Shown here: positions 2,254 through 41,938 of the stretch, piece after piece
How the letters are laid out: every line of letters starts with the position of its first letter
How positions within the stretch are numbered: the first letter of the stretch is position 1
Origin: Pseudophaeobacter arcticus DSM 23566
GTDB lineage: Bacteria > Pseudomonadota > Alphaproteobacteria > Rhodobacterales > Rhodobacteraceae
NCBI RefSeq assembly: GCF_000473205.1
Contig: NZ_AXBF01000005.1
Location: forward strand, 124,001-188,000
DNA: 64,000 nt
Reading direction: 5' to 3'
Program-made: the position numbers and the translations under genes
Notes under the pieces: generated by a model
Seen by the model: the letters and a program-made list of their open reading frames with translations, nothing else
Database searches by the model: none
What the model was told of the DNA's origin: nothing

Positions 2254-3090
2254 TTATCCGCTGCACGTAAATTGACCACGGAACCCGGCTTCGTAGTCGG
2301 TTCCCGCGCTGACGATTAGATCGGTCAGGTCACCATCTGTCTCTGCGATGCGGGCCGACAGCGGGCCTTCAGAAAATGCATTTTCGCCCTGCGCATTCAG
2401 GCGCACCAGATCACCGCTGATCTTCATTGCGGCGGCAAACCCTTCGCCGGTTTCACCAGTCACCAGTACAGCCGGACTGTCCGAGGTGTAAGCAAAGCGG
2501 CAATTTCCGCCATTCGGGAACACCGCAGCGATTTCGTCTTCCGTCAGAAACTCGGGATCGACTTTCGACACGACCTCCGTTTGAAGCGCCTGTTGCGCAT
2601 TCACGACCTGTGGCGGCGGTTCGGTCGGCGTGGCCGATGCCTCGCCGTTTGCTTCAATATCAGCAATTAGGTAGCGCATTTCGGCGATTTCCTTGTCCTG
2701 CGCATAGATGATGTCGTCTGCCAGCCCCCGGACGCGCGGGTCGGTGATCTCGGCACGAGTCGACGTCATGATGGCGATCGAATGGTGCGGGATCATGGCG
2801 CGCATGTAGGACCTGTCCTGCACCGTGAATTGCCCGCGTACCGGCCAGAGGCTTGCCGCAAAGACAAGAATGGCGCCTACGAAGATCGCGATGTTGACCT
2901 TGGTGTTCTGATACATGGACAACATGCACGCCAACATGATCACGGCCATGGTCGCCCCCATCAGGATGGCCATGTAAAGGCGTGTCTCCGAAAAGAAGAT
3001 ATGGCCCCAAAGATAGGTGTTCAGGTACATCAGAACGAACATGACCACGGTCGATGTTCCGATCATCATAAAGAATCGTGAGTAGTGCAT
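2254..3090 (-). CDS. DUF305 membrane-anchored copper-associated protein
   Basis: This 278-residue protein has three membrane helices in the first about 90 residues and then a periplasmic DUF305 helical domain with the conserved MIPHHSIAIM motif near residue 105. DUF305 proteins often sit in copper and other metal resistance clusters and are rich in His and Met, but their activity is not established. The C-terminal 100 residues, with a cysteine pair far apart (NCRF and FTCSG), form an additional domain that I do not recognise. The ATG has a strong aaggagg site (3100-3107 on the plus-strand numbering). It is the first gene of an operon with the glutaredoxin fusion, divergent from the gene at 3270, and the two directions share the palindrome at 3132-3143. 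Confidence 0.8.
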   Translation of the reverse strand: MHYSRFFMMIGTSTVVMFVLMYLNTYLWGHIFFSETRLYMAILMGATMAVIMLACMLSMYQNTKVNIAIFVGAILVFAASLWPVRGQFTVQDRSYMRAMIPHHSIAIMTSTRAEITDPRVRGLADDIIYAQDKEIAEMRYLIADIEANGEASATPTEPPPQVVNAQQALQTEVVSKVDPEFLTEDEIAAVFPNGGNCRFAYTSDSPAVLVTGETGEGFAAAMKISGDLVRLNAQGENAFSEGPLSARIAETDGDLTDLIVSAGTDYEAGFRGQFTCSG

Positions 3091-3131
3091 TTCCAGTCAC
3101 CTCCTTGCAGTTCTTTGTAAAAGAAGAACAT

Positions 3132-3143
3132 TCCAGCGCTGGA
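3132..3143. promoter_or_regulatory. 12-bp perfect palindrome in divergent promoter region
   Basis: TCCAGCGCTGGA is a perfect palindrome lying between the DUF305 operon (leftward) and the Tat L,D-transpeptidase gene (rightward). A near-identical palindrome, TCCTGCGCAGGA, is at 14839-14850 upstream of another copper operon. The pair suggests an operator shared by the copper genes. No protein binding can be shown from sequence alone. Confidence 0.4.
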
Positions 3144-3269
3144 GAGTTCCAAAAGCGCGAATTTTCGTGGTTTCAAGGCAACAAAGGCGCGTCGTTTGCC
3201 CCGGTTCACGGCTTCTTTTCTTTGCCCCTGGCGCGCACTGAATTTTCATGGGTCCGAGGAGATCGCGCC

Positions 3270-3851
3270 ATGCAGAATTTCACGAGACGAGAATTGATTT
3301 GTGCCGGAGCGTTGGGTTGCTTCCTGCCGACAACTGCCTGGGCCCACAAAGTCAAATTGCCCGAACGGTTCGAACCGCAATTGATAAACACCCGTCGTGA
3401 TGACTGGATGAACGGGGACATCCACGTCGTTCCTGACGATTTTTTCCTCTATTTCATGCTCGAGGACGGGATGGCGATCCGCTACGGGGTCGGAGTAGGG
3501 CGCAAAGGTTTGTACGAACCCGGAGAGTTCACCGTGGATCGCAAGGCCAAATGGCCATGGTGGCGACCGACGAACGCTATGATCCGGCGCGAGCCACATA
3601 AGTACGCGAAGTACAAGGATGGGCTGAAAGGCGGGCCAAACAACCCGCTTGGGGCCCGCGCGCTCTATCTCCATGATGATGACGGACGCGATACCTATCT
3701 TCGCATTCACGGAACGAACGCCCCGGAGACAATTGGGTCGGCCGTGTCGAATGGATGCGCGCGATTGACGAATGAGCATGTGAAGGATCTGTACGATCGC
3801 GTTGAAATCGGCGCTCGCGTCTTTCTGTATCCCAAAGTGACAACGGCGTGA
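3270..3851 (+). CDS. Tat-exported L,D-transpeptidase (YkuD family), copy 1
   Basis: This 193-residue secreted enzyme has a YkuD catalytic domain with the signature HGTNAPETIG and SNGCARL; the cysteine of SNGC is the nucleophile that makes 3-3 cross-links in peptidoglycan or attaches proteins to it. The ATG at 3270 was chosen because it follows a gaggag site and opens a Tat-like signal (FTRRELICAG, then a hydrophobic stretch and AWA cleavage site). An upstream in-frame extension to 3078 lacks such features. A second, diverged copy lies at 5908-6573. Copper ions inhibit L,D-transpeptidases in enteric bacteria through this cysteine, so an extra exported copy in a copper island may restore cross-linking under copper stress; this is inference. 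Confidence 0.88.
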   Translation: MQNFTRRELICAGALGCFLPTTAWAHKVKLPERFEPQLINTRRDDWMNGDIHVVPDDFFLYFMLEDGMAIRYGVGVGRKGLYEPGEFTVDRKAKWPWWRPTNAMIRREPHKYAKYKDGLKGGPNNPLGARALYLHDDDGRDTYLRIHGTNAPETIGSAVSNGCARLTNEHVKDLYDRVEIGARVFLYPKVTTA

Positions 3852-5907: not shown

Positions 5908-6573
5908 ATGGTTACAAGACGACACTTCCTTGCACTTTCCGGCTCGCTGTTTTCAGCGTCTCTGAGTTCGCCAGCATTCGCTAAGACCTGGCCGTCAACA
6001 GCCGAAAAAGCAGCTTGGGATGCGCAGATCACGCCCGCCAACTATGACCCGGCAACAACCAACCCATGGGGGCTGCATCCCAGGCTGCTGCCGCAACGCG
6101 TTTTGGCGAATGACGGTTTGCGCCCGGGTGACATTCACGTCGATGCGATCGCGCGCTATCTGTACCATATCGAGGAAGGTGGCACCGCGATGCGATACGG
6201 GGTGGCGATTGCCAAGGGCGATCTCTATGAACCCGGCACCTATACGATCCGCCGAAAGGTCGAATGGCCGCACTGGACGCCAACGCAGTCAATGATCGAA
6301 CGCGATCCGGAGGCTTACGAGCGGTTTGCCGACGGTATGGAGCCCGGCCCCAACAATGCCTTGGGCAGCAGGGCTTTGTATCTATTCGTCGGAGATCGGG
6401 ATACGTACCTTCGAATTCACGGAACGCCGAGCCCTCGCAGCATTGGCGGCCGGGCCAGTTCGGGATGCGTGCGCATGGTGATGGCCCACATCAATGATCT
6501 CTATCCGAATGTCGCTGTCGGATCGACGGCGTTCCTTTACTCGGCCGAAGACAGCGTTACCGCTCGAAGCTAA
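5908..6573 (+). CDS. Exported L,D-transpeptidase (YkuD family), copy 2
   Basis: This 221-residue protein is the second YkuD enzyme of the island. It has an N-terminal export signal starting MVTRRHFLAL, ending in a PAFA cleavage site, and a catalytic domain with IHGTPSPRSIGG and ASSGCVRM, the nucleophile cysteine being in SSGC. It shares with copy 1 the segments RYGV, LYEPG, the GPNN-LGSRALYL block and DTYLRIHGT, so both descend from one ancestor but are clearly diverged. It has about 30 more residues before the catalytic domain than copy 1. It follows dsbB by 42 bases on the same strand and could be the last gene of that transcript. Confidence 0.88.
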   Translation: MVTRRHFLALSGSLFSASLSSPAFAKTWPSTAEKAAWDAQITPANYDPATTNPWGLHPRLLPQRVLANDGLRPGDIHVDAIARYLYHIEEGGTAMRYGVAIAKGDLYEPGTYTIRRKVEWPHWTPTQSMIERDPEAYERFADGMEPGPNNALGSRALYLFVGDRDTYLRIHGTPSPRSIGGRASSGCVRMVMAHINDLYPNVAVGSTAFLYSAEDSVTARS

Positions 6574-8845: not shown

Positions 8846-9766
8846 GTGCTGCCAGCGGGATTGCCATTTCCGGATATTGGAACCGACCTCTTCTCCTTCG
8901 ACATCGGGGGGGTCACATTCGCACTCCGCTGGTACGCGCTAGCCTATATCTTCGGTATCCTGATTGGCTGGCGCATTTGTTCGAGTGCCATAAGCCGTCC
9001 CGCGCTCTGGACGTCAGCTGGACCGCCGCTTGACCGAACGCAGATCGAAGATCTTCTGACGTGGATCATCATCGGCGTGATTGCTGGTGGTCGCCTGGGC
9101 TTTGTACTGTTCTACCAGCCCGCATATTATCTCGCCAATCCCTTGGAAATTCTGATGGTCTGGCAAGGCGGCATGTCTTTCCACGGGGGGTTCGCGGGAG
9201 TTGTCATCGCGGCCTTGCTGTTCTGCCTTAGACAGAACGCGTCATTGCTCAGCACTGGCGACTTGCTGGCTTTGGCAACACCACCAGGCTTGTTTCTTGG
9301 AAGGCTGGCGAACTTCACCAACAATGAGTTGTGGGGGCGTCCAACGGACGTTCCCTGGGCGGTGATCTTTCCCGGCGAAGTCGCGCAGGCCTGCCCAGGG
9401 GTTAGCGGCCTCTGCGCCCGACACCCGTCCCAGCTGTACGAGGCGGTATTGGAGGGGCTCATTCTTGGAATACTGCTCATTTATCTCGCTTGGGGCCGGG
9501 GCTGGCTGAAAATGCCCGGTGCCTTGGCTGGCGTGTTTCTGACCGGCTATGGTCTTGCCCGAAATTTCGTCGAGATGTTCCGGCAACCGGACCAGCAGTT
9601 CGTGACGGAAGATAACCCAATTGGCCATGCGCTCCACTTTGGTGAGTGGGGTTTGACCATGGGCCAGTTGCTCTCCATGCCAATGGTGCTGGTCGGGCTG
9701 GCGTTGATCGTGTTCGCCCGGCGGGAACGGGGCCGGACAGCGCCACCCCGCAGAGCCGCAATGTAA
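8846..9766 (+). CDS. lgt: Prolipoprotein diacylglyceryl transferase Lgt
   Basis: This 306-residue inner-membrane enzyme transfers diacylglycerol from phosphatidylglycerol to the cysteine of prolipoproteins. Family features are [29 protein letters not shown] (the Lgt signature), RHPSQLYEA and [11 protein letters not shown], in that order. Seven membrane helices can be drawn. The start is a GTG with gagga 9 bases upstream. A chromosomal lgt is essential in Gram-negative bacteria, so this is almost certainly an extra copy. The island contains several lipoproteins (6650-7279, 15380-15601, 15601-17064), which could be its clients. It ends 78 bases before the second copper ATPase, which has its own promoter. 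Confidence 0.95.
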
Positions 9767-14711: not shown

Positions 14712-14838
14712 CACAAGACGCGTCAGCATCGCTCCGCTGACCGGAGGGGAATATTGGCTCTTTATATGTTTCTGATATGCAACATTTTCTGACGGCAGCG
14801 GCCGAATCTCGCCTTTTTCACAAAAAAGCGACAAACCT

Positions 14839-14850
14839 TCCTGCGCAGGA
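14839..14850. promoter_or_regulatory. 12-bp perfect palindrome upstream of copper operon
   Basis: TCCTGCGCAGGA lies 40 bases upstream of the gene at 14890. It differs from the palindrome at 3132-3143 only by the central A/T pair, and both precede copper genes. A shared regulator is a reasonable guess. Confidence 0.4.
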
Positions 14851-14889
14851 CGGATTGACTGGATTGCTTCGGTATCCGATATCTAGAGC

Positions 14890-15306
14890 ATGAGCTTTCG
14901 AGTTTTCATATCATGCTGGTTCAAGACGTTTACGTGCATTGCGTTTGCGTTAGCCTTGGTATTTTCACCACCTTCTGCCGCTCACGCGGCGTCCGGCATG
15001 CATGACGGACATCAAGCCAAGTCTATTGTTGTCGTTGGTGCCGCCATGACTCATGACACCGGAAGCGATGCGCATCACGCGCATGAGAAGCTTAGGGTCG
15101 CAAGCGACATCGCAGCGTCCGACAAGGATGGCAAAGAGCAACAATCCCAAGAGTGTTGCAACGGTATCTGTATTTCTGTCGTCTTCCTCGAAGACACCAA
15201 GATCGAAGCAGAGCCGGTTGGTACAAGTGAATATGTCATTCTCGACGGTCAAACGTATTCGGTGGAAACAGCAGGGTTCCTGCGGCCCCCTCGATTCCTG
15301 ATCTGA
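14890..15306 (+). CDS. Secreted His-rich small protein of unknown function
   Basis: This 138-residue protein has a signal peptide (hydrophobic core in about residues 12-30, cleavage near AHA-ASG) and a mature part with many histidines (GMHDGHQ, DAHHAHE) and a cysteine cluster ECCNGIC. The combination suggests a periplasmic metal-binding protein. I do not know the family. The ATG has no strong ribosome site. It begins the gene series that leads to the TolC-like outer-membrane protein and the second multicopper oxidase, and is separated by 73 bases from the small lipoprotein. Copper or silver binding is inference. Confidence 0.65.
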   Translation: MSFRVFISCWFKTFTCIAFALALVFSPPSAAHAASGMHDGHQAKSIVVVGAAMTHDTGSDAHHAHEKLRVASDIAASDKDGKEQQSQECCNGICISVVFLEDTKIEAEPVGTSEYVILDGQTYSVETAGFLRPPRFLI

Positions 15307-15379: not shown

Positions 15380-15601
15380 ATGAAAATTCATCTACTTATG
15401 GGGGCTTCGGCCCTCGGGCTTGGCGCATGCGCCTATGAGCCCACCCCGTTGCCGTCCGTCGCGACCCAACAGGCCGTCGTCAACACGGCAGTTTCATCGC
15501 CGATCAGCTATCAGGACCCCTTGGCGGGCTACACCTATCGCGGCCCTACAGGTCCCCGCGACTGGCGTTCCGTCAATCAAGAACAGACGGAGGGCAACTG
15601 A
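15380..15601 (+). CDS. Small lipoprotein
   Basis: This 73-residue protein starts with a lipoprotein signal (LMGASALGLGAC) and has a short mature chain rich in Pro, Thr and Tyr. The ATG at 15380 was chosen because it opens the signal peptide. Its stop codon overlaps the start of the next gene by one base (TGATG), so it is translationally coupled to the outer-membrane efflux protein and probably works with it. No wider family is recognised. Confidence 0.75.
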   Translation: MKIHLLMGASALGLGACAYEPTPLPSVATQQAVVNTAVSSPISYQDPLAGYTYRGPTGPRDWRSVNQEQTEGN

Positions 15602-17064
15602 TGCGGGTATCGAAGTTTCCGCTGGTTTTCGGCTTTCCGCTAATCCTGGGTGCCTGTGCTACCGCTGTGCCGGGCATCTACACGGAACCAAAAGCTGGCT
15701 TCGCCAATATTTCCAGCCAGGTCACACCAGCCCTCGGCAAACGGACAGCCTTCGCCGAAACCCAGGCCGAAAACGAGGCCTTGAAGAAGCAGGTGCACGC
15801 AATGGTGCACCGCAAGACCATTTCGGCGGACACCGCCGTTCAGGTCGCGCTTCTGAACAACAAAGGGTTGCAGGCGTCCTATGCAAACGTCGGCCTGTCT
15901 GCCGCAGAGGCCTGGCAGCAATCGATGCCGGAAAACCCAATCGTGTCGATTGGTATACTGGGCATCGGTGCGCCCGAACTGGGTGCCTACAGGGCGATCG
16001 AGGGACTGATCCGGTCGAACGTGCTCGATGCCACCACTCGCAAGCAGCGTACGGCCATTGCAGACGCAAACTTCCGGCAGGCTCAACTGAGCGCCGTGAA
16101 CGACACACTCGCACTGGCCAATCAGACGCGGAAGGCATGGGTCGATGCCGTAGCCGCCTTCGAAGCTGTGAGTTATCTCCGCCGTGCGAAAGCGACGTCT
16201 GACGCCGGATCGGAATTAGCGATGAGACTGGGCGAGACCGGCGCGCTTAACACAGCCGGGCAGGCCCGTGAACAGGCATTCAATGCCGAACTCGCCGGAC
16301 AACTTGCCCAGGCACGCTTGAATGCTACCCGGTCCAAAGAGCAGCTGACCAGGCTCATGGGGCTGTGGGGCACCGAAGTCGACTATTATGTGCCCGATGC
16401 TCTTCCTGCGCTGCCGCGTTCCGTCGGCCGTGTGACTGACATCGAAGCGAAAGCATTGCGAAATCGGGTTGATCTGCGCGTTGCCAAACTTGGCCTGGAA
16501 GCACAGGCCAAGGCGTTTGGTCTGACTGATCAGACTCGCATTATCAGCGATCTCGAATTCATTGCCGGGTTCGAAGCGGAGCGGGAAATTGAGGACGGAG
16601 AAACGGAGACCGTGACCACCCCTCAGGTGGAGGTGGAGTTCGCAATCCCGATCTACGACACCGGGAAGGCACGGATGCGCAAGGCGGAATTGTCGTACCT
16701 GCAAGCAGCCAACGTGCTGGCAGAAAGAGCCGTCAACGTCCGGTCCGAAGCGCGTGGTGCTGAAGCCTCCTATCACGCCGCGTATAAGATCGCCCGCCAC
16801 TATCGCGACGTTCTGGTGCCGCTACGCACGACCGTCGAAGAAGAGGGGCTGCTGTCTTATAACGGCATGATCACCAACACTTTCGAGCTGCTGACAGACG
16901 TGCGCGAGAAACTGGGCGCATCACTGGAAGCGGCAAACGCAAAACGCGAATTCTACATGGCACAGGCTGATCTGACCGCTGCGATCTATGGCGGCGGCGA
17001 AGGCGGTGGCGGTGCTGGTGGAGAAGGCGCGACACTTGCCGCCGGTGGCGGCGCAGGACACTGA
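15601..17064 (+). CDS. TolC-family outer-membrane efflux lipoprotein (CusC-like)
   Basis: This 487-residue protein has a lipoprotein signal (LILGACATA) and the long amphipathic helices of outer-membrane efflux proteins, including the NNKGLQASYANVGLSAAEAWQ segment and the second-half EVEFAIPIYDTGKARMRKAELSYLQA repeat (only partly quoted here). It would form a trimeric channel for metal or drug export. The end is a Gly-rich tail. No membrane-fusion protein or RND pump gene is next to it, which is unusual for a CusC-like channel; instead a multicopper oxidase follows 11 bases downstream. The channel may pair with pumps coded elsewhere or play the part that PcoB-like outer-membrane proteins play in copper operons. 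Confidence 0.85.
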   Translation: MRVSKFPLVFGFPLILGACATAVPGIYTEPKAGFANISSQVTPALGKRTAFAETQAENEALKKQVHAMVHRKTISADTAVQVALLNNKGLQASYANVGLSAAEAWQQSMPENPIVSIGILGIGAPELGAYRAIEGLIRSNVLDATTRKQRTAIADANFRQAQLSAVNDTLALANQTRKAWVDAVAAFEAVSYLRRAKATSDAGSELAMRLGETGALNTAGQAREQAFNAELAGQLAQARLNATRSKEQLTRLMGLWGTEVDYYVPDALPALPRSVGRVTDIEAKALRNRVDLRVAKLGLEAQAKAFGLTDQTRIISDLEFIAGFEAEREIEDGETETVTTPQVEVEFAIPIYDTGKARMRKAELSYLQAANVLAERAVNVRSEARGAEASYHAAYKIARHYRDVLVPLRTTVEEEGLLSYNGMITNTFELLTDVREKLGASLEAANAKREFYMAQADLTAAIYGGGEGGGGAGGEGATLAAGGGAGH

Positions 17065-17075
17065 AAGGAACTGAC

Positions 17076-18434
17076 ATGCTAAATAGACGTCAATTACTCG
17101 GAGCCGGCGCGGCAGGTGCAACGCTGGTCTCTTCGAAAGCCTGGGGTCAAACCCTGAACATGGGCCTGCCCGAAGCTGCCCAAATGGATAGCGCAGCAAC
17201 GGCGATCACGGCGCGTCCTAGTACCGGGCCGGACTACACACCTGTGGTCACATTGAACGGGTGGACCCTGCCGCACCGGATGAACAACGGGGTGAAAGAA
17301 TTTCACCTCGTGGCCGAACCGGTAGAACGCGAGCTTGCCGACGGCATGATCGCGCATTTGTGGGGCTACAACGGCCAATCCACCGGCCCGACGATCGAAG
17401 CAGTCGAAGGCGACCGGGTGCGCATCTACGTCACCAATAAGCTGCCGGAAGGCACAACGGTGCACTGGCACGGGCTCATTCTTCCTTCAGGCATGGATGG
17501 GGTCTCCGGATTGAGCCATCCAAGCATCCCGCCGGGCAAAACCTTCGTCTACGAATTCGACTTGGTGAAGTCCGGAACGTTCATGTACCACCCCCACGGC
17601 GATGAAATGACCCAGATGGCGATGGGGATGATGGGCATGTTCGTGGTCCACCCCAAGGATCCCACATTCATGCCGGTGGATCGTGATTTCCTGATCATGC
17701 TGAATGCTTTCGACATCGATCCGGGTACCTATGTACCCCGCATCATGACGATGACGGATTTCAACCTTTGGACCTGGAACAGCCGGATCTTCCCCGACAT
17801 CGATCCGCTGGTCGTGAACAAGGGCGACCGGGTGCGAGTACGGGTTGGGAACCTTACGATGACGAACCACCCGATCCATATGCACGGCTATGACTTCAAG
17901 GTCACCTGCACGGATGGCGGCTGGGTGCCGCCTGAAGCACAGTGGCCGGAGGTCAGCATCGACATTCCCGTAGGTGCGATGCGCGCCTACGAATTCGTCG
18001 CCGATCATCTGGGAGATTGGGCGATCCATTGCCACAAATCGCACCATACGATGAACGCCATGGGCCATGACGTGCCGACGTTCATCGGGGTGAACAAGAA
18101 GCCGCTGACCCAGAAGATCCGTCAATTCCAGCCGGAATACATGCCGATGGGCATGTCCGGCATGGGGGACATGGCAAAAATGGAAATGCCGCTACCCGAC
18201 AATACCATCCCGATGATGACGGGTTGGGGCCCGTACGGACCCATCGAGATGGGCGGCATGTTTTCGGTCGTGAAGGTGCGGGACGGCATCGACGCGGACG
18301 ATTACTCCGATCCCGGCTGGTACGAGAACCCTCCGGGCGAGATGGCCTACGAATGGACTGGCGAATTACCCGACTTTGCCTCCAACAACAGCCCCAAAAC
18401 CATTCTCACACCGAAACCAACCTCGAAGGGCTGA
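17076..18434 (+). CDS. Multicopper oxidase (CopA/CotA-like), second type
   Basis: This 452-residue oxidase has an export signal resembling Tat (MLNRRQLLGAGAAG). Ligand clusters are HWHG, YHPHGD, HPIHMHGYDF and HCHKSHHTMNAMGHD, so the type 1, 2 and 3 copper sites appear complete. A Met-rich stretch (MPMGMSGMGDMAKMEM) near residue 355 probably binds Cu+ and feeds it to the active site. It follows the outer-membrane protein by 11 bases and precedes the cupredoxin-CusF protein by 46 bases, so all are likely one operon. It should oxidise Cu+ in the periplasm. It differs in length and order of motifs from the oxidase at 3935-5239. Confidence 0.93.
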   Translation: MLNRRQLLGAGAAGATLVSSKAWGQTLNMGLPEAAQMDSAATAITARPSTGPDYTPVVTLNGWTLPHRMNNGVKEFHLVAEPVERELADGMIAHLWGYNGQSTGPTIEAVEGDRVRIYVTNKLPEGTTVHWHGLILPSGMDGVSGLSHPSIPPGKTFVYEFDLVKSGTFMYHPHGDEMTQMAMGMMGMFVVHPKDPTFMPVDRDFLIMLNAFDIDPGTYVPRIMTMTDFNLWTWNSRIFPDIDPLVVNKGDRVRVRVGNLTMTNHPIHMHGYDFKVTCTDGGWVPPEAQWPEVSIDIPVGAMRAYEFVADHLGDWAIHCHKSHHTMNAMGHDVPTFIGVNKKPLTQKIRQFQPEYMPMGMSGMGDMAKMEMPLPDNTIPMMTGWGPYGPIEMGGMFSVVKVRDGIDADDYSDPGWYENPPGEMAYEWTGELPDFASNNSPKTILTPKPTSKG

Positions 18435-18480: not shown

Positions 18481-19197
18481 ATGAGAAATCTTCTTTTGAC
18501 GACAAGCTTCGCGATCGCGCTATCAGCACCGGCCTTTGCTGCAGGTACACACGACGGCGGACATGGGGAGACCAAGCCAGCCGCAATGATGGTCGGCATG
18601 CCGGGTGACGCCGCCAAGGTTGACCGCACAATCGACGTCACTTTGCTCGAAAACGATGAGGGCCAGATGCTGATCGAGAGTGAGCCGATGGATATCAAGG
18701 AGGGCGAAACCATCCGCTTCAACATCACCAACAAGGGTGAGCTGGAGCATGAATTCGTCCTCGACACGGTAGAGCGTAATGCCGAGCACAAGATCGAAAT
18801 GGCCAAGATGGACATGGAACATGACGATCCGAACCGTATCCGTCTCGATGCGGGCGCCTCGGGCGAAGTTGTCTGGACTTTCGCAAATTCTGGCACATTC
18901 GAAGCAGCGTGCCTGATCCCGGGCCACTACGAATCGGGAATGCACCGTGAGGTCGCAGTCGGTGACCAGATGGCTCAGGCTGACGTGGAATACACAAGCG
19001 GCACCATCAAGAAAATCGACGCAAAGGCCGGCAAGGTCACAATTATCCACGGCCCTCTCGTCAACCTGGATATGCCGGCAATGACCATGGTGTTCCGCGC
19101 CGACGAGGCGATGGTGGCCAAGATGGCGGAAGGTCAGGACATCGAGTTCGTTGCCGACCGGGTCAAGGGTAAACTGACCGTCACGCAGATGAAGTAA
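18481..19197 (+). CDS. Periplasmic cupredoxin-CusF fusion protein
   Basis: This 238-residue secreted protein joins two copper-binding domains. After a signal peptide (cleavage at AFA) comes a cupredoxin-like domain with LEHEFVL, CLIPGHYESGM, that is the His, Cys, His and Met of a type 1 copper site. The last about 75 residues (from SGTIKKIDAKAGKVTI) form a CusF domain with the LDMPAMTMVF core, where Met and aromatic residues bind Cu+ or Ag+. The ATG has agga 7 bases upstream. The first domain is a close relative of the separate protein at 19307-19840. It could take copper from the oxidase or pass it to the outer-membrane channel. Confidence 0.9.
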   Translation: MRNLLLTTSFAIALSAPAFAAGTHDGGHGETKPAAMMVGMPGDAAKVDRTIDVTLLENDEGQMLIESEPMDIKEGETIRFNITNKGELEHEFVLDTVERNAEHKIEMAKMDMEHDDPNRIRLDAGASGEVVWTFANSGTFEAACLIPGHYESGMHREVAVGDQMAQADVEYTSGTIKKIDAKAGKVTIIHGPLVNLDMPAMTMVFRADEAMVAKMAEGQDIEFVADRVKGKLTVTQMK

Positions 19198-19306: not shown

Positions 19307-19840
19307 ATGAAGAATTTCCTGAGAACCTGCACCATCGCCCTTGCGCTTGTCCTTCCGGCTTTTTCAGTGGGCGCTTCCAGTGGCAAGGGCCAGCAGCCTC
19401 ACGCGCGAGCCTTCGAAGTGCCTGGCCATGATCCGATCGGGAAACCCGGTGATGGCTCCTCGATCGACAGGACGATTGAAATATCCATACGGGAGACGGA
19501 AAGCGGCTACATGCTTTTCGAGCCGGACGCGATCCAGATTGAAAGCGGCTCGGTTGTCCAGTTTTCAATCAGAAATACCGGCGCATTGGATCACGAGTTC
19601 TTTCTCGGTTCCTTTGACGAGGTCGCAAAACATCAGCAATGGATGCGCGAACATCCCGATATGCAGCATGACAGCGCCAACTCGGTTTCGATCCCTAGTG
19701 GGCAAAATGCCGAGTTGATCTGGGATTTCTCCGATATGACCAACCTGGAGTTCGTATGCTTGATTCCCGGCCACCGGGAAGCGGGCATGTGGGGCGTCAT
19801 CATCGTGCACGATCACCTTGCGCCGAAGTCCAAGGATTAG
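19307..19840 (+). CDS. Periplasmic cupredoxin-like copper protein
   Basis: This 177-residue secreted protein is a single-domain paralogue of the N-terminal half of the fusion at 18481-19197: shared features are SIDRTIEISIRE, FSIRNTGALDHEFFLG and CLIPGHREAGMW. The His of DHEF, Cys and His of CLIPGH and Met of AGMW give a type 1 copper site, so electron transfer or Cu storage is likely. The signal peptide ends near VGA. It begins a new gene series after a terminator and lies 9 bases before the ABC-type membrane protein, with two cytochromes c downstream, so it may be the copper electron carrier of that group. Confidence 0.85.
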   Translation: MKNFLRTCTIALALVLPAFSVGASSGKGQQPHARAFEVPGHDPIGKPGDGSSIDRTIEISIRETESGYMLFEPDAIQIESGSVVQFSIRNTGALDHEFFLGSFDEVAKHQQWMREHPDMQHDSANSVSIPSGQNAELIWDFSDMTNLEFVCLIPGHREAGMWGVIIVHDHLAPKSKD

Positions 19841-19849
19841 ACATTTTCA

Positions 19850-21154
19850 ATGTCACTCTTGGATAGGTATCACCTGCTTGTACACGACGTAGCTGCCGCC
19901 CTTGGGTACGACTACAGCGATGCCACGCCGGACTGGGTTCATCCGTTCATTCATCTCATACTGGTCTTGGCCCCCGCGCTGCTGATCAGTGTTGGCTCAT
20001 ATCTTGCTATTCGCGGCATTCTGAAGCTTTGGAAGTACCGCAGCACGCCTGCGATCCACCCAGAGCCCATACGAGGGCTCGAAGGAAGTCTTTTCAGCAC
20101 CGTCTTGCGCTATTCAAGAAGGCAGCAAGCGTTGATGATCGTGGTTAGCCTCATCGCGATGCCTATACTCTATCTGACTTTGGAACTGCCAAAACAGATC
20201 GTAAACAACGCTCTGGATTCTGGCCGTTTCCCAGTTGCCGTTTTGGGACGAGACGTCGACCAGGTCGTTTTCCTCATGCTTCTTTGCGGTCTCTACCTTT
20301 TGGCTATTATCCTGAATGGGCTAAACAAATATAGCCTTAACGTCTTCAAAGGGTATGTCGCCGAGCGTTTTCTGCGGCGCTTCCGCCTGCTGGTCTATCG
20401 GCAATGGCGCAGCGATCCAGACTCCGGAAACCAAAGCGAGATCGTCCCTATTCTCGCACAGGAAGTCGAGCCCATCGGTGGCTTCGCGGCAGATGTCCTT
20501 ACGCTGCCAATCCTGCAAGGCGGTACGCTTCTGACGATCCTGTTTTTCATGTTCGTTCAGGACCCTGTCTTGGGTGCCGCCGCACTGACGGTACTGCCAA
20601 TTCAGCTCGTGCTGCTGCCCAAGCTGCAACGGCGGGTCAACGCGCTTTCACGCACCAGGATCAAGGAGGTCCGACAGCTTGGCAGGCAGCTCAGCGATCA
20701 ATTGCGCGAACGGCAGGTCAATCCGGCCGGGCTGCTGCCAGTAAGCGCAAGTTTTAGAGAGCTTGAGCACGTGCGCAGGAAGATTTTCCGTCTGAAGTTC
20801 TTCATCAAGGCCCTCAACAATTTTCTGACCGCGCTGACGCCATTCCTGTTCTACTCTCTGGGTGGATATTTCGTCATCGAAGGGCGGATCACACTCGGCG
20901 CGCTGGTGGCCGTCCTGGCAGCGCACAAGGACTTCTCGGCACCGCTGAAGGAACTTTTCCGCTACTATCAGACCTTGGAAGACACCCGAATCCGGTATCA
21001 CGAAATCACGGCTTTTTTTGCCGGGTCAGGCCACTCGTCCGAAGTGGCCCAGGCTGATGACAGTACGCTGGAAAAGGTCAGCCAATTCGAGCAATCGCCG
21101 CTCAGAAAAACGACTTTGCCTTTCGAGGGGCATGGAGACCTCGCTTCACAATGA
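19850..21154 (+). CDS. ABC-exporter transmembrane domain without ATPase domain
   Basis: This 434-residue protein has a membrane helix near residues 35-55 and then a type I ABC exporter membrane domain (about residues 85-380) with helices such as LMIVVSLIAMPILYLTLELP and an NVFKGYVAERFLRRFR-like coupling loop. Related proteins continue into a nucleotide-binding domain, but here the chain stops after the sixth helix: no Walker A, ABC signature or Walker B motif is present, and none is found in the neighbouring frames. Its stop overlaps an ATG (ATGA) just before the cytochrome gene. It may be a truncated exporter, a partner of an ATPase coded elsewhere, or a membrane protein used for another task. 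Confidence 0.75.
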   Translation: MSLLDRYHLLVHDVAAALGYDYSDATPDWVHPFIHLILVLAPALLISVGSYLAIRGILKLWKYRSTPAIHPEPIRGLEGSLFSTVLRYSRRQQALMIVVSLIAMPILYLTLELPKQIVNNALDSGRFPVAVLGRDVDQVVFLMLLCGLYLLAIILNGLNKYSLNVFKGYVAERFLRRFRLLVYRQWRSDPDSGNQSEIVPILAQEVEPIGGFAADVLTLPILQGGTLLTILFFMFVQDPVLGAAALTVLPIQLVLLPKLQRRVNALSRTRIKEVRQLGRQLSDQLRERQVNPAGLLPVSASFRELEHVRRKIFRLKFFIKALNNFLTALTPFLFYSLGGYFVIEGRITLGALVAVLAAHKDFSAPLKELFRYYQTLEDTRIRYHEITAFFAGSGHSSEVAQADDSTLEKVSQFEQSPLRKTTLPFEGHGDLASQ

Positions 21155-21168
21155 AGGAGTTTGATAGC

Positions 21169-21609
21169 ATGAAATGGGCAGCAATATTTTTTGCTCTGAT
21201 CGCCGTTTCTGCGGCAGGATGGTACATCCTGCAGCCGACCCACTCCCAGACGAGTACTCAGACGGACGAAAGAATGGCACTTCCCGCAGGTGCGCTTGCA
21301 ACTGTCAGGCTGCCCCCAAGTTTCACCGAGCAAGAGCAAATCGGCAAGCGTGCCTATGGTGCGGCCTGCGCGACCTGCCACGGCGTCAATGGGCAGGGTC
21401 AGGACGGCGTTGCTCCACCGCTGGTGCACAAGATTTATGAGCCGGGCCACCACGGTGACATGGCGTTTGTCCTCGCAGCACAGAATGGTGTTCGGGCGCA
21501 CCATTGGAAGTTTGGCAACATGCCAGCTGTCGAGGGCGTAACACGAGCAGAAGTATTGAATATCGTGGCATATATACGGGCTCTTCAAAGGGAAAACGGA
21601 ATTAACTGA
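21169..21609 (+). CDS. Membrane-anchored cytochrome c
   Basis: This 146-residue protein has one N-terminal membrane helix (about residues 3-20), which probably anchors it to the inner membrane, and a class I cytochrome c domain with the haem site CATCHG and distal Met in NMPAVEG. The ATG at 21169 follows aaggag by 9 bases; an ATG at 21151 overlapping the previous gene gives a slightly longer N terminus without a ribosome site. It would carry electrons at the periplasmic side, possibly between the cupredoxin and respiratory chain. It is the third gene of the group starting at 19307. Confidence 0.85.
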   Translation: MKWAAIFFALIAVSAAGWYILQPTHSQTSTQTDERMALPAGALATVRLPPSFTEQEQIGKRAYGAACATCHGVNGQGQDGVAPPLVHKIYEPGHHGDMAFVLAAQNGVRAHHWKFGNMPAVEGVTRAEVLNIVAYIRALQRENGIN

Positions 21610-21685
21610 GTGACCTGTCGACCTGAGGCAAAAGCATAACAGCCATCCAGTAGATAATAACTGTCATCAACGGGGAGAGAAACGA

Positions 21686-22138
21686 ATGAAACCTAAATTT
21701 ATCGCAACGCTAGCATTGGCATTGTCCGGAACAGGTGTTCTCGCCGATGGACATGCAACCGGCGACGCATCGGCCGGAGACAAGGTATTTAACAAGTGCA
21801 AGGCCTGCCACTCAATCGTCAGGACGGATGGTGACGTTATCCGAAAGGGTGGCGCGGTTGGGCCAAATCTTTATGGTGTGTACAACCGAACAGCAGGGAC
21901 CGAAGAAATGTTTGGGAATAAATTTCGGGACTCTATTCGTGAAGCGGGCGAGAATGGCTTGGTCTGGAACGAGAGCGATTTCGTAGCCTATATTGCAGAT
22001 CCGAAGAAGTTCCTCGCGACTTTTCTGAACGACAGCAAGGCGAAATCTGGCATGTCATTCAAATTGAAGAAAGAAACGGATGCCAAGGCAGTCTGGGCTT
22101 ATCTCGTTTCGGTTGGACCGGAGGTTGAGGCCGATTAG
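21686..22138 (+). CDS. Soluble cytochrome c2-like protein
   Basis: This 150-residue periplasmic cytochrome has a signal peptide (cleavage after VLA), haem site CKACHS, the conserved GAVGPNLYGVYNRTAG helix and loop, and the distal Met in KSGMSFKL, fitting the cytochrome c2/c550 type of Rhodobacteraceae. It would shuttle single electrons between membrane complexes. It follows the anchored cytochrome by 76 bases; the ATG has a gggagag site. Two cytochromes next to a cupredoxin and an oxidase island suggest that copper oxidation is linked to respiration, which is inference. Confidence 0.9.
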   Translation: MKPKFIATLALALSGTGVLADGHATGDASAGDKVFNKCKACHSIVRTDGDVIRKGGAVGPNLYGVYNRTAGTEEMFGNKFRDSIREAGENGLVWNESDFVAYIADPKKFLATFLNDSKAKSGMSFKLKKETDAKAVWAYLVSVGPEVEAD

Positions 22139-23363
22139 ATTTTTATTCGTTTGCACGGCTCTTTTTATGCTCGGTGCGCCCTTTGTAGCGGCTGAAGATG
22201 CCCCTCTGTTTCCAGTCAGACCACTGGTTGCACCGGTTGGGGATCACGCACGTGAACCCTCGCTTTCAACACTGCCCGATGGTCGGATCGTGATGAGTTG
22301 GACCGAAGGTAACAACGCCGTTCGGATGGCCCTGTTCGATGGCACCTATTGGACGGAGGCGCGTACAATTCATCAATCTGAGACACTGTTTGTGAACTGG
22401 GCCGACTTTCCGTCAGTCGTTGGGCTTAGCGATGGGACGCTTGCAGCGCATTGGTTGGAATTGAATGGGCCGGGCAGCTATCAATACGACGTAAAGATCG
22501 CTTTCTCCTTCGATGAGGGTTTGAACTGGACAACGCCAATCATACCCCACGATGACCGATCAAAGCGTGAACATGGTTTCGTGTCGCTAATCCCTGATGA
22601 TAGCGCTGGTTTGACAGCTCTTTGGCTAGATGGTCGTGCATACGATAATCAAGCCGCAGACGACAGCTATGAGAATGCCATGCAGGTCCGCGCACGTCGC
22701 ATTGCGCCGGACGGTTCAATGGGACCGGAAAGCCTGCTCGACCCACGCGCTTGTACGTGCTGTCAAACATCGGCCGTCCGCAAGGAAGCAGGTAACATCA
22801 TAGCGGTTTACAGGGACCGAACAGCCGAAGAAATCCGCGATATTTCGGTTGTCAGGTTGGTCGAAGAAGAATGGACCGACCCCGAAACAATCTACGGCGA
22901 CGGCTGGGAAATCGCAGGATGCCCTGTCAACGGACCTGCCATCGATGCGTTGGGAACGTACGCGGTAGTCGTGTGGTTCACCGGTGCCAATGGCGAGGCA
23001 AAGGCTCGAATTGCGTTTTCCAGGGATGGGGGCGCATCCTTTGAAGACCCGTTGCAACTCGATCTCGGCACACCCGCAGGTCGCGTAGATGTCTTGCAGA
23101 TGGGTGACGGCAAAGCACTTGCTCTTTGGTTGGAGTATGCGAATGGCGGTGAAGCAATAGTCGTGTGTCAGGTGTCGCCGGAGAGCGGGTGTACTTCGCC
23201 ACAAGCACTCCACATCAATCGTGGGCGAGAGTCGGTAGGATTTCCAAGGATTACGCGATCAGCAGCTGGCGTTGTCGTTGCGTGGACCGGGTCTGCACAG
23301 GGCAACTTGGCGGGGACAACCGTGGTTGGTGTCGAAGTAGCGATACCGTCTCCCGCAAGGTAA
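22125..23363 (+). CDS. Secreted BNR/sialidase-like beta-propeller protein
   Basis: This about 412-residue protein has an N-terminal signal peptide and repeated blades of the sialidase/BNR kind (for example FSFDEGLNW and FSRDGGASF Asp-box motifs), so it should form a beta-propeller in the periplasm. A cysteine group, ACTCCQT, near the middle could bind a metal. The start is uncertain: TTG 22125 overlaps the end of the cytochrome gene, an ATT at 22134 has a better distance to ggagg, and the first ATG (22167) would cut the signal peptide. No sialidase activity is claimed; the catalytic arginine triad was not found. It is the last gene of the group starting at 19307. Confidence 0.7.
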   Translation: MRPIRFLFVCTALFMLGAPFVAAEDAPLFPVRPLVAPVGDHAREPSLSTLPDGRIVMSWTEGNNAVRMALFDGTYWTEARTIHQSETLFVNWADFPSVVGLSDGTLAAHWLELNGPGSYQYDVKIAFSFDEGLNWTTPIIPHDDRSKREHGFVSLIPDDSAGLTALWLDGRAYDNQAADDSYENAMQVRARRIAPDGSMGPESLLDPRACTCCQTSAVRKEAGNIIAVYRDRTAEEIRDISVVRLVEEEWTDPETIYGDGWEIAGCPVNGPAIDALGTYAVVVWFTGANGEAKARIAFSRDGGASFEDPLQLDLGTPAGRVDVLQMGDGKALALWLEYANGGEAIVVCQVSPESGCTSPQALHINRGRESVGFPRITRSAAGVVVAWTGSAQGNLAGTTVVGVEVAIPSPAR

Positions 23364-37747: not shown

Positions 37748-39094
37748 TCAGAACATTGACCCCAAGTCAGAAGCCCCTGTCGGGTAAGCGGCAGGCATCG
37801 CTTTCACCTGCGCCGCCGTCAGCCCCAGCTTGATCGCCAGCGAGAAGACGTTGATCAGCTCGGCATACTCCGGGCCGAACATGTGGGCTCCGAGGATCTT
37901 GCCATCCTTGCCGGTGATAATCTTCGCACCGGCATGTGTTTCACCGATGCGCTTCTGCGAGAACCAGCCCGAGGTGTCGGTGAAGCTCACCTCCACATCA
38001 CCCACCTCTCGCGCCTCTTCCTCGAGCAACCCGACCCGCGCCAGCTCGGGTATGGTGAACACCACGCTCGGCACTCCAGTGTAGTCGGGTTCAGTCCGCT
38101 TGCCCTTCAGCATGTTGGAGGCGGCGATCTTACCTTCGAACACAGCTACCGGGGTCAGCGGCTTTCCTGGCGAGGCGGCAGCGTCTCCGGCCGCATAGAT
38201 GCGTGGGTTCGACGGAGATTGCAGCCAAGGCATGACCTTCACGCCACCGTGCTCGGTTTCGATATCGGCAGCCGCAAGGTCAAGATGGTCGATGGCAGGC
38301 ACCCTACCTGCACCGTGAACGACGAGATCGGCTTCGATGGAATGGCTCTGACCGGCCCTGCGGTAGAGCACCCGGCGCGCCCCATTCGCGTCCTCGATCC
38401 GTTCCATTTCGGCCTCGGCCGCGATCTTAATCCCGGCTTCGCGGCTCCGTTCGAGCAACATCTTTACGAGTTCGGGGTCAAACATCTTCAACTGGCGTGC
38501 GCCGCGGTCGAGGATTGTCACCTCAGCTCCCGCCAGCGCGGCGATATGGGCGAATTCGAAGGAGATGTAGCCGCCACCGACAAAGGCGATCCGGCGCGGC
38601 AGTTCGGCGAGGTTCAGGAAATCGGTGCTGTCGATCAGTCGCTCGGCACCGGGAAATTTCAGCGGCCTCGGCTTTGCGCCCGTAGCAATCAGTGCGCGGC
38701 GAAAGGCGATCTCGCCGTAGCCGTCGATCTCGATCCGGTCCTCGGCGGTGAAGCGCGCGCGGCCATGTAGCGTTTTCACCCCGGCCTCTGTCAGCGCACT
38801 TTCCATGCTCTCGGGCACCGGGTCGGTGAAGCTCTCCTTGTGCTTCATCAGCGTGGGCCAATCGATCCTGGTCTCTCCTGCGACGCCCTTGCCTTCGAGC
38901 AGCCGCACGGCCTCCACCGCCTCGGCGCCGGCGCGCAGCATCTTCTTCGGGTCGCAGCCCCGGAGTGCGCAGGTGCCGCCATAAGGCAGCTCGTCGACGA
39001 TGGCGACGGACCAACCCGCCTGGCTGCATTTTTTCGCGGCGTTGATCCCGGCCATGCCGGCGCCGATGACGATCAGGTCGAGTGTCTCGGTCAT
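37748..39094 (-). CDS. FAD-dependent pyridine nucleotide-disulfide oxidoreductase, MerA/Gor-like
   Basis: This 448-residue flavoenzyme has an N-terminal FAD fold (IGAGMAGINAAKK), the redox pair C42 and C47 in GGTCALRGC, a second nucleotide fold (VGGGYISFEFAH) and a dimerisation domain. It differs from glutathione reductase and MerA: the C-terminal His-Glu dyad of the HPTxxE motif is replaced (AAYPTGASD) and there is no vicinal cysteine pair at the end. It is the last gene of the mer operon. It may reduce a thiol linked to mercury detoxification; its substrate is unknown. Confidence 0.85.
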   Translation of the reverse strand: MTETLDLIVIGAGMAGINAAKKCSQAGWSVAIVDELPYGGTCALRGCDPKKMLRAGAEAVEAVRLLEGKGVAGETRIDWPTLMKHKESFTDPVPESMESALTEAGVKTLHGRARFTAEDRIEIDGYGEIAFRRALIATGAKPRPLKFPGAERLIDSTDFLNLAELPRRIAFVGGGYISFEFAHIAALAGAEVTILDRGARQLKMFDPELVKMLLERSREAGIKIAAEAEMERIEDANGARRVLYRRAGQSHSIEADLVVHGAGRVPAIDHLDLAAADIETEHGGVKVMPWLQSPSNPRIYAAGDAAASPGKPLTPVAVFEGKIAASNMLKGKRTEPDYTGVPSVVFTIPELARVGLLEEEAREVGDVEVSFTDTSGWFSQKRIGETHAGAKIITGKDGKILGAHMFGPEYAELINVFSLAIKLGLTAAQVKAMPAAYPTGASDLGSMF

Positions 39095-39139
39095 ATGTGC
39101 TCCTCGTTCATGCTTGTCAGTCTGGGGCCGCTTACGCGT

Positions 39140-39502
39140 TCAACGATAGCGACCCATCAATCGTTCACTCAGCCCCCAGATCGCCATAGTGCCTCCACCC
39201 GTCGCAATGCCGAGCCAACGCCAGCCGTCCTCTCCGAGCGGCACCAGCCCCGTGCCATGGCCCAGCACAGGAAGCGTCATCGCCAGCAGGAAGGGCCCGG
39301 TGTAGCGGCAATGGACCCGGCCACAGCGCCGGGCATTGAACAGGCAGGCACTTCCCATCCACACCAATGCCAGCAACCAGATCCCCATCTTGGGTCCATC
39401 GGGCAGTGGAATCGCCAGCACCATGGCACCTATCGGCAACCACCAGGCAAGAGCGGCGCCGAGAGTCGAACCGAGGAGGTCGCGCTTCGATTTTCCGCTC
39501 AT
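39140..39502 (-). CDS. Small membrane protein of the mer operon
   Basis: This 120-residue protein has four hydrophobic segments and a conserved-looking loop NARRCGRVHCRYTGP between them. The ATG at 39502 lies 4 bases after the merA stop. Proteins of this kind often accompany merA in alphaproteobacterial operons; its function is not known. The cysteine pair CGRVHC could bind Hg2+, which would fit an auxiliary transporter. The start was chosen over an upstream extension because that would run into merA. Confidence 0.72.
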   Translation of the reverse strand: MSGKSKRDLLGSTLGAALAWWLPIGAMVLAIPLPDGPKMGIWLLALVWMGSACLFNARRCGRVHCRYTGPFLLAMTLPVLGHGTGLVPLGEDGWRWLGIATGGGTMAIWGLSERLMGRYR

Positions 39503-39506
39503 GCCT

Positions 39507-40919
39507 TCACCCAGCGCAGCAACTGAGAGCGGCCACGTCCTTCTCGAAGGTCTGGGCCGCAAGCTTCAGCCCTTCCACTGTCGTGAGATAGGGCATGATG
39601 GTATCGCCCAACTCCTCGTAGGTGAGCCCGGCTTTCAGCGCCATCGCTGCGGTCTGGATGCTGTCTGCGCCCTCGGGGGCGAGGATCTGCGCCCCCAGCA
39701 GGCGTTTGCTGCCTGCCTCGGCCACCAGCTTGATCAGACCGCGCGTGTCGCGGGCGGCAAGCGCGCGGGGGACTGCGTCGAGCGGCAGGACCGAGGTGAG
39801 GACCTCGTGTCCAGCGGCGCGGGCCTGTGCCTCGCTCAGTCCCACGCCCGCCACCTGCGGATCGGAGAACACGACCCAGGGCATCGTGCTGTTGTCGTAG
39901 CTGCGTGCCTCTCCCGCCACCGCGTTCCGGGCGGCGAGCTTGGCGCCGTAGGCCGCCATATAGACGAACTGGTTGCGCCCTGTGACATCGCCAGCGGCCC
40001 AGACGTTCGAGTTGGTGGTGCGCATCTGCGCGTCCACCACGATGCCGCCGCGCGCGCCGGTCACGATCCCGGCCGCGCCGAGGTTCAAGCCATCACTGTT
40101 CGGCACCCGCCCGGTGGCAAGCACCAGTCGCTCGGCGATGAAGTTCTCACCCCCGTTACCGGTCAAACGTAGGCCGTCGCCGTCGCGCACCACGCTCTCG
40201 TAGCCGGCGACCCGCGCCAAGCGAATACCCTCGGAAGCGAGGTAGCCCTCCAGTGCTTCGGAAATCTCGGGTTCGGCCTCGGGCAGCACACCGCGGCGGC
40301 TGACCAGCGTCACCGCGACACCGGCACGGGCGAAGAGCTGCGCAAACTCCACGCCGATATAGCCCGCACCGAGGACCAGCATTGAGGCGGGTAGAACGGT
40401 GAGTTCCAGCGCCGACGTGCTGTCGAGGGCGCCGATATCCTGAATGCCGGGGATCGCGGGCGCGTGGGGACGCGATCCGGTGGCGATAACGATCTTCGCT
40501 GCCGGGAACGCCGCGTCGTCTACGGTAAGACTGCCTTTGCCGTCGAACCGGGCGCGACCTTCGATGTAGTCCACGTTCTCGTGCCGAGGCAGCACGTCGG
40601 CGTATTTTGCCGCGCGCAACTCCTCAACGAGCGCCTGCTTTTGCGCAACCGTCGCAGTCCAATCAGTCACGCTGGCTTCGGCACTGATGCCGTCAAACCG
40701 ATTGGCGGCGCGGGCGTGGTGAAGGCCCTCCACGGCGCGGATCAGGGCCTTGGAGGGCACGCAGCCCACGTTCACGCAGGTCCCGCCAATCGTCCCATCG
40801 CCGATCAGCGCGACTCGAGCCCCGGCTTCGGCGGCGGTAATGGCGGCCGAAAATCCGGCCGAACCAGCGCCGATCACAGCGAGATCGTAACCGCCCTTGG
40901 GAGTGCAGCAATCTTTCAT
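39507..40919 (-). CDS. merA: Mercuric reductase MerA
   Basis: This 470-residue enzyme reduces Hg2+ to volatile Hg0 with NADPH in the cytoplasm. It has FAD fold IGAGSAGFSAA, redox pair C48/C53 in GGTCVNVGCVPSK, second nucleotide fold LGAGYIGVEFAQ, GDVTGRNQFVY and the C-terminal vicinal pair C467-C468 in LSCCAG, needed to receive Hg2+. The usual N-terminal HMA domain is missing, leaving only the C4-C5 pair near the start (KDCCTP), so it is a short MerA. It is preceded by merT, merP and merF. Confidence 0.96.
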   Translation of the reverse strand: MKDCCTPKGGYDLAVIGAGSAGFSAAITAAEAGARVALIGDGTIGGTCVNVGCVPSKALIRAVEGLHHARAANRFDGISAEASVTDWTATVAQKQALVEELRAAKYADVLPRHENVDYIEGRARFDGKGSLTVDDAAFPAAKIVIATGSRPHAPAIPGIQDIGALDSTSALELTVLPASMLVLGAGYIGVEFAQLFARAGVAVTLVSRRGVLPEAEPEISEALEGYLASEGIRLARVAGYESVVRDGDGLRLTGNGGENFIAERLVLATGRVPNSDGLNLGAAGIVTGARGGIVVDAQMRTTNSNVWAAGDVTGRNQFVYMAAYGAKLAARNAVAGEARSYDNSTMPWVVFSDPQVAGVGLSEAQARAAGHEVLTSVLPLDAVPRALAARDTRGLIKLVAEAGSKRLLGAQILAPEGADSIQTAAMALKAGLTYEELGDTIMPYLTTVEGLKLAAQTFEKDVAALSCCAG

Positions 40920-40931
40920 ATCATTCTCTCT

Positions 40932-41159
40932 TCAATTCGTGCGTTGGCGCCGCCAGAGCGCAAAAATGGTGATGCCGATGAACACTGCCAGCGCCGGCAG
41001 GAGCACGAAGTCGAGCCAGCCCAGCATGGCCGAGAGCCCGACCGCGCCCAGCAGGACCACAAGGACCGGGGTGAAGCAGCACAGCGCCACCAGGACGGTG
41101 CCGATCAGCCCGTATTTCAGCATGCGGTCGTCCTTGGGGTTTGTCTCGCGCTCGCTCAC
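40932..41159 (-). CDS. merF: Mercury uptake membrane protein MerF
   Basis: This 75-residue inner-membrane protein has two helices and the vicinal cysteines of the family in LVALCCFTPVLVVLLGAVGL. It imports Hg2+ for MerA. The canonical second cysteine pair on the cytoplasmic side is not visible, and the end is RRQRTN. It overlaps the end of merP by 4 bases and is followed by merA after 12 bases. Confidence 0.85.
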   Translation of the reverse strand: MSERETNPKDDRMLKYGLIGTVLVALCCFTPVLVVLLGAVGLSAMLGWLDFVLLPALAVFIGITIFALWRRQRTN

Positions 41160-41452
41160 GAGACGTCTTCCTGGGCCACTGTTGCTCCATAGCCCACTCC
41201 GGTGACGGCGGCGATCAGCTGGTCCGGGCCGGTGGCGAGATCGTCATAGTGCAGGACGTAAACGCCATCCTCGGCCTCGCCCTCGAGGAATTCCGCGATC
41301 TCCACAGTCTCCACGCGCTTGAGCGCAGTGGCGACGATATAGCTGCACGAGGGGCAGGTCAGACCAGTGACGTGCAGGCGGGTCTCGGCTTCGGCTGCAA
41401 AGATCGCGGTCGGCGAGATCCAGAGGATGGCAGCGAGTAACACTTGTCTCAT
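41156..41452 (-). CDS. merP: Periplasmic mercury-binding protein MerP-like
   Basis: This 98-residue protein has a signal peptide (LLAAILWISPTAIFA) and a heavy-metal-associated fold with the site TGLTCPSCSYIV, where CPSC replaces the more usual CxxC sequence of MerP. It would scavenge Hg2+ in the periplasm and pass it to MerT or MerF. The ATG at 41452 is 14 bases after merT. The stop overlaps the merF start (ATGA). Confidence 0.88.
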   Translation of the reverse strand: MRQVLLAAILWISPTAIFAAEAETRLHVTGLTCPSCSYIVATALKRVETVEIAEFLEGEAEDGVYVLHYDDLATGPDQLIAAVTGVGYGATVAQEDVS

Positions 41453-41466
41453 GATGGGCTCCGATA

Positions 41467-41865: not shown

Positions 41866-41896
41866 CGTGTCACCCTGTTGTCGTTCGATGACTGAC

Positions 41897-41927
41897 AAGA
41901 TAGGGTCTGTAGCAGCTACAGGATCAA
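41897..41927 (-). promoter_or_regulatory. MerR-controlled promoter and operator of the mer operon
   Basis: On the minus strand, -35 TTGATC (plus 41922-41927) and -10 TATCTT (plus 41897-41902) are separated by 19 bases. The spacer contains a perfect 7-base dyad around one base, CTGTAGC-T-GCTACAG (plus 41907-41921). The over-long spacer and the dyad are exactly the MerR-type layout. Confidence 0.85.
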
Positions 41928-41938
41928 GGAGAAATTTC

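Follow-up and report, generated by a model that had tools for sequence, protein, structure and literature searches.

The 64,000-nucleotide stretch of Pseudophaeobacter arcticus DSM 23566 analysed here (contig NZ_AXBF01000005.1, positions 124,001 to 188,000; hereafter the window) comes from a 5.0-Mb genome assembled in six contigs and carries five closely spaced genes, one of which encodes an ATP-binding cassette (ABC) membrane domain without an ATPase, here called ABCm. We lean, with modest confidence, towards the explanation that these genes form the downstream half of a single copper-detoxification row in marine Rhodobacterales, in which ABCm serves as an ATP-free exporter membrane domain at periplasmic copper. 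A sequence-only reading had taken the five genes for a self-contained module that belongs to no known pathway; instead, they proved to be the tail of a copper row with TolC, multicopper oxidase (MCO), CusF and cupredoxin genes. The row as such is of a known kind, and the ATPase-less ABC protein is its novel part.

The list of open reading frames (ORFs) and a Pfam scan confirmed all five genes in place on the + strand. The full row starts at 14890, where five further genes precede them, and its largest gap is at most 109 nt. Its features are as follows.

14835..14860, + strand: dyad ACCTTCC-N6-GGAcGG followed by TTGACT, promoter/operator-like, ahead of the row
14890..15306, + strand: CopL-like Cys/His-containing secreted protein, recurring position (NF033807 below cut-off, 21.2 of 40 bits)
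15380..15601, + strand: small putative lipoprotein, recurring position (ORF; named by inspection)
15601..17064, + strand: TolC-family outer membrane protein, OEP (PF02321; RefSeq 'TolC family protein')
17076..18434, + strand: CopA-like MCO, 452 aa (PF07732 and PF07731; TIGR01480 below cut-off)
18481..19197, + strand: cupredoxin-CusF fusion (PF00127 and PF11604)
19307..19840, + strand: CopI-like secreted cupredoxin (PF00127; NF047895 and NF051440 below cut-off)
19850..21154, + strand: ABCm, ATPase-less type IV ABC membrane domain with an N-terminal extra helix (PF00664 only)
21151..21609, + strand: membrane-anchored monoheme cytochrome c, CATCH (PF00034)
21686..22138, + strand: soluble cytochrome c2/c550-like protein, CKACH (1cxa, E 3.3e-34)
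22080..23363, + strand: secreted propeller, BNR/sialidase-like, motifs CxCC and GCPVNGPA (uncertain start)

The intergenic gaps of the five-gene tail are 9, -4, 76 and -59 nt, in agreement with the earlier description of five genes in one direction with small gaps; the last value holds only if the propeller starts at the ATG at 22080, the other candidates being an ATT at 22134 after GGAGG and a later RefSeq start. The ten genes are likely one transcript. Scans of the row for internal promoters (6 found, 5.1 expected) and internal terminators (7 found, 10.5 expected) decide nothing. The 26-base dyad pattern ahead of the row has its sole match in the window there at up to 3 mismatches (0 expected). 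The dyad occurs in exact or varied form in most of 21 sequences aligned upstream of CopL, with none seen in L041, and its exact consensus in 19 of 125 loci.

Conservation of the row centres on ABCm and the copper-binding proteins before it. A tblastn search found an ABCm relative in 392 of 72,556 plasmid records, with at least 80% of ABCm covered in 87. In a cleaner sample of 390 genomes of the order, 23, including the window's own, carry 25 ABCm copies at E<=1e-100, a threshold beyond which more distant copies such as that of Dinoroseobacter fall. A cupredoxin/CusF stretch lies upstream of every one of the 25, and within about 1.5 kb we found the anchored cytochrome with 16, the propeller with 13 and the second cytochrome with 4. 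The expected recurrence of the gene order in other genomes was thus borne out for many genera; the complete five-gene set occurs in only 4 of the 25 copies, which rules it out as a unit. A second collection of 50 loci (42 copper-type loci, which together with 10 large relatives had made up a 52-locus set, plus six plasmid stretches and L092 and L093; that is, named genomes, plasmids and two further genomes, with L001-L003 omitted as duplicates) includes several loci that end soon after ABCm and several that are near-identical; here a cupredoxin or CusF ORF precedes ABCm in 49 loci, and the anchored cytochrome (33), the propeller (27) and the second cytochrome (7) follow it. As a control, none of 28 large relatives of ABCm has a row gene beside it, with flanks that are short (0.6 to 10 kb upstream, and none past the ORF downstream in 15 of the 28). 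Since cupredoxin/CusF is constant upstream and the large relatives show no row genes in these flanks, ABCm goes with periplasmic copper-binding proteins, and the cytochromes and propeller are frequent additions. Furthermore, base changes in four pairwise ABCm comparisons fall mostly at third codon positions; together with an order that recurs across many genera, this places the row beyond chance.

The absence of an ATPase was confirmed at the level of the protein and of its surroundings. ABCm matches PF00664 (ABC_membrane) with no ABC_tran, and both loops on which an ATPase would dock (coupling loops) are shortened relative to the large relatives in 51 of 51 ABCm rows, L071 being outside the comparison because it holds only a 203-aa piece of ABCm. 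No canonical ATPase ORF was found in 47 of the 50 loci (916,632 bases in all, some with short flanks), and those in L039, L051 and L059 lie at least 4 kb from ABCm; the search counted canonical-domain matches only, and ABCm matches of one query, ug1 (the ABCm relative of L076), were excluded. An ordinary exporter half with its ATPase encoded elsewhere would have precedent, as many ABC systems encode the membrane and ATPase parts separately, and the search covered the 50 loci rather than whole genomes screened for orphan ATPases. We nevertheless give this explanation very little credence and set aside an ATPase in trans, because the docking loops are short throughout and most loci have no ATPase nearby. 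The same two observations point away from ATP use by ABCm. Some copies are annotated 'ABC transporter ATP-binding protein', a name that is misleading for ABCm.

The sequence-only reading had left it open whether the protein lost or never had its ATPase. Its nearest relatives (34-47% identity in the membrane domain) are large alphaproteobacterial proteins with a decayed ATPase domain, in open frames of about 900-1200 aa, two of them (L089, L090) in the source genome. This makes loss the likelier reading of the sequences, with a tree that is not firmly rooted. A GK[ST] pattern was sought in the 28 large relatives as available, and the Walker A region was inspected in 20 of them; several end with their locus, so late motifs are not always visible. 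The decayed family without GK[ST] comprises L089, L090, L061-L070 with the exception of L067, L072 and L079. L079 has glycosyltransferase genes as neighbours and carries a fused cNMP-binding domain. Further ABC membrane proteins without an ATPase lie far from the copper clade (L076 6902-7966, L077 6836-8011, L085-L088, L091); among such distant proteins, an Azospirillum copy directly follows mgtA, and a Rhizobium copy lies near genes for a universal stress protein and a heavy-metal P-type ATPase. On the tree, in which long branches meet, the ATPase-less label needs 2 changes; the ATPase was thus likely lost more than once, with the root not fixed. The large relatives differ from ABCm in keeping a degenerate ATPase domain and full-length loops, and in having no copper genes in the flanking DNA available. 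Relatives of this form allow the order of ATPase loss to be studied.

The predicted ABCm model (72 sequences, mean pLDDT 76.5) replaced an earlier one (44 sequences, pLDDT 66.5) with weak Foldseek matches (best E 0.02). For its residues 77-398 a type IV exporter fold was computed, the fold that ABCm has in common with exporters such as TmrAB, TAP, MsbA and CydDC; ABCm differs from these in lacking an ATPase domain, fused or beside it, and in its short coupling loops and extra helix. The likeness to CydDC is one way to arrive at a heme-handling ABCm that protects or builds c-type cytochromes under copper stress, its histidines binding heme b. We regard this as improbable: the CydDC matches are tied with those of many other exporters, a common fold shows no function, and cytochrome genes were not found beside many copies, in contrast to the cupredoxin/CusF genes beside 25 of 25.

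ABC proteins are textbook ATP machines, and SbmA is a known case that dropped ATP. An excerpt of a report on SbmA describes loss of the ATPase domain and docking helices, gain of TM0, and proton coupling (PMC13316013). ABCm resembles the SbmA/BacA (SLiPT) proteins in having no ATPase, lost coupling helices and an extra N-terminal helix, and differs from them in its nearest relatives with a decayed ATPase, its copper neighbourhood, its conserved histidines and the absence of PF05992. Membership of that family was rejected because PF05992 gave no match at E up to 1 in three genomes with ABCm (G000, G005, G011), while the E. coli control matched. SbmA is not among the best 50 fold matches listed for the model, which excludes nothing. 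By analogy, ABCm may work like SbmA and may handle copper without ATP.

The extra N-terminal helix of ABCm, with its His-rich segment, is a feature of the clade; no Pfam family matched residues 1-79 at E up to 10, and the segment is missing from most large relatives in the alignment. In an alignment of 153 clade sequences (41 from the loci and, from 120 database proteins, the 112 with lengths of 390-480 aa), His12, His31 and His35 are each present in 151 of 152, His8 in 138 of 146, Trp29 in 152 of 152 and His359 in 152 of 153. Of the 28 large relatives, 26 have Tyr and 2 have His at position 359, and in the predicted ABCm model the TM6 helix is broken at 361-362, adjoining His359. All 153 sequences carry few Lys/Arg in the N-terminal segment (mean 1.1 vs 8.9 after the extra helix); by the positive-inside rule, the N-terminus should therefore be periplasmic. 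From their conservation, the histidines are candidate copper or heme ligands. A more specific proposal, which we put forward only tentatively, is that ABCm represents a class of its own: a former exporter domain turned gradient-driven transporter of copper or copper-peptide, or membrane copper receptor, that would be supplied by cupredoxin/CusF at a periplasmic histidine site made of His8, His12, His31 and His35 and gated by His359 in TM6.

The setting of ABCm suggests how the row might operate. CusF and cupredoxins are copper-binding proteins, Cu(I) is the substrate that MCOs oxidise, and TolC-like proteins are outer-membrane channels. The row has its MCO and periplasmic copper-binding proteins together, as a periplasmic copper operon does, and shares with operons of the CopA/CopB, CopI and Cus type the MCO, CusF domain, CopI-like cupredoxin, TolC-like and CopL-like proteins and the association with mobile elements; unlike them, it adds the ATPase-less ABC membrane protein, cytochromes c and a propeller. 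None of the 10 PF00873 matches in the genome, which would mark a Cus-type RND pump, lies on the window's contig C2, and no membrane fusion (adaptor) protein is annotated near the row in three plasmids, where no family search was made. Among the matches listed in the open-licence literature, titles and abstract openings named no ATPase-less ABC protein in a copper operon, which is not proof. In the explanation we favour, CusF and the cupredoxins would bind periplasmic copper, the MCO would oxidise it, the TolC-like protein would serve export and the cytochromes electron disposal. On the periplasmic side of the inner membrane, ABCm would most likely partner the cupredoxin/CusF encoded upstream and either accept copper or pass it on; it may move copper, a copper complex or other cargo, and any such cargo would be driven by an ion gradient in the manner of SbmA. 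Such a protein could have arisen stepwise, the ATPase decaying in the relatives and the copper clade then dropping both ATPase and docking loops and carrying the His-rich extra helix.

The remaining products of the tail bear on the idea, first raised from the sequence alone, that ABCm is a passive scaffold or anchor holding cupredoxin and cytochromes for an electron route from copper to respiration. Pfam supports Copper-bind and Cytochrom_C domains here, in line with the copper link and the anchored and soluble cytochromes c that had been described. The reading frame of the anchored cytochrome starts within that of ABCm, with an overlap of 4 nt; this cytochrome follows ABCm in 16 of the 25 sampled copies and resembles the cytochrome domains of copper nitrite reductases and cbb3 oxidase subunits, and the second cytochrome is c2-like, all of which would suit a scaffold; on sequence grounds, an electron route through both cytochromes may exist. 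However, no anchored cytochrome was found within about 1.5 kb downstream in the other 9 copies, and a scaffold has no obvious need of the exporter core, yet residues 321-391 of that core are the best-conserved stretch of ABCm (mean top-residue frequency 0.93). We therefore consider a purely passive role rather unlikely. The CopI-like cupredoxin gave no match to solved structures at E up to 0.001.

The propeller has the ACTCC cluster originally noticed, and six of its cysteines (C225, C227, C228, C281, C363, C371) do not vary across 36 aligned sequences picked from matches. Its BNR_2 match is below the curated cut-off (25.8 of 31.4 bits), its match to sialidases is weak, and 7755 of 8000 candidates were scored as propeller relatives. 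It was found in the genomes of 2 of 60 relatives at E up to 1e-20. The propeller also lies in other copper or metal clusters; it or related cytochromes also accompany MCO, CopC/CopD or two-component genes with no ABCm in the stretches seen, and in one locus the MCO is 3 kb off among otherwise unrelated neighbours. In P0123 (562 aa, on 12 contigs) the second cytochrome and propeller read as one chain, which reflects either a genuine fusion or a frameshift.

Annotations show this row also on plasmids of Phaeobacter, Leisingera and Roseovarius that are typed conjugative, the Roseovarius one lacking the second cytochrome, and VirB-type genes follow it in the window and in the Phaeobacter and Leisingera plasmids. 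The copper row looks as if it were carried by a plasmid-type, mobile-looking element. ABCm copies also lie more than 1 Mb into contigs of three genomes, so they are not restricted to plasmids. Copper plasmids pick up genes, and ABCm might be such cargo with no real copper function, a view to which the conjugative plasmids and growth tests of two related plasmids, showing no copper phenotype, lend some weight. We judge it very unlikely: ABCm is a constant neighbour over diverse arrangements, its changes sit mostly at third codon positions, its near-invariant residues are specific to the clade, and it also occurs in those deep contig positions.

Several observations weigh against the explanation we favour. 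In excerpts of the reports, a 102-kb D. shibae plasmid, which its species and size mark as the carrier of the Dinoroseobacter copy L080, had no effect on resistance to copper, cobalt or zinc and raised silver resistance only slightly (PMC9426580), and R. litoralis tolerated less copper than R. denitrificans did (PMC3141670). The R. litoralis plasmid pRLO149_83 very likely carries the ABCm copy P0057 (83,129-base contig), which has all six key residues. These two plasmid results lowered our confidence. L080 (about 42% identity) has Phe at 8 and 359 while keeping His12 and the W-x-H-x-x-x-H motif, and seven clade sequences have Tyr at position 8; conserved histidines can also be structural, their ligand role being read from sequence. 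The acidic (glutamate) ladder of SbmA was not located in ABCm, whose positions were not mapped onto SbmA, and the first 40 residues of the model reach a pLDDT of about 70, below the whole-model mean. In the tree L085, a cousin that lacks the extra helix, branches next to the copper clade, and the copper set is closely related, so that its counts are not independent events. In addition, the excerpt of a study of Epibacterium (Tritonibacter) mobilis under copper reports expression of two MCOs and copper resistance proteins B, with no mention there of ABCm (PMC6308992).

Elsewhere in the window, the copper part contains two L,D-transpeptidase-like genes (by inspection) and lgt (RefSeq name) at 3078-3851, 5908-6573 and 8846-9766; R. 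indicus, P. yeei, R. litoralis and S. mediterraneus likewise have L,D-transpeptidase genes in their copper clusters. A partial second copy of the dyad (3128-3145, 2 mismatches) lies near divergent DUF305-like and L,D-transpeptidase-like genes (by inspection); the 18-base dyad pattern has 11 matches at up to 3 mismatches against a shuffle mean of 4.1, with 1 of 100 shuffles as high. VirD4- and relaxase-like ORFs lie further downstream (named by inspection). Between the type IV secretion (T4SS)-like and VirD4-like genes, 37748-42373 holds two MerA-type flavoprotein reductases and a MerR-type regulator (by inspection), probably a mercury resistance region.

Taken together, these results bring a conserved membrane protein without an assigned role into marine bacterial copper biology and offer individual residues as targets. 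Should ABCm indeed represent a class of its own, as tentatively proposed above, it would give the ABC fold, after SbmA, another and independent example of function without ATP.

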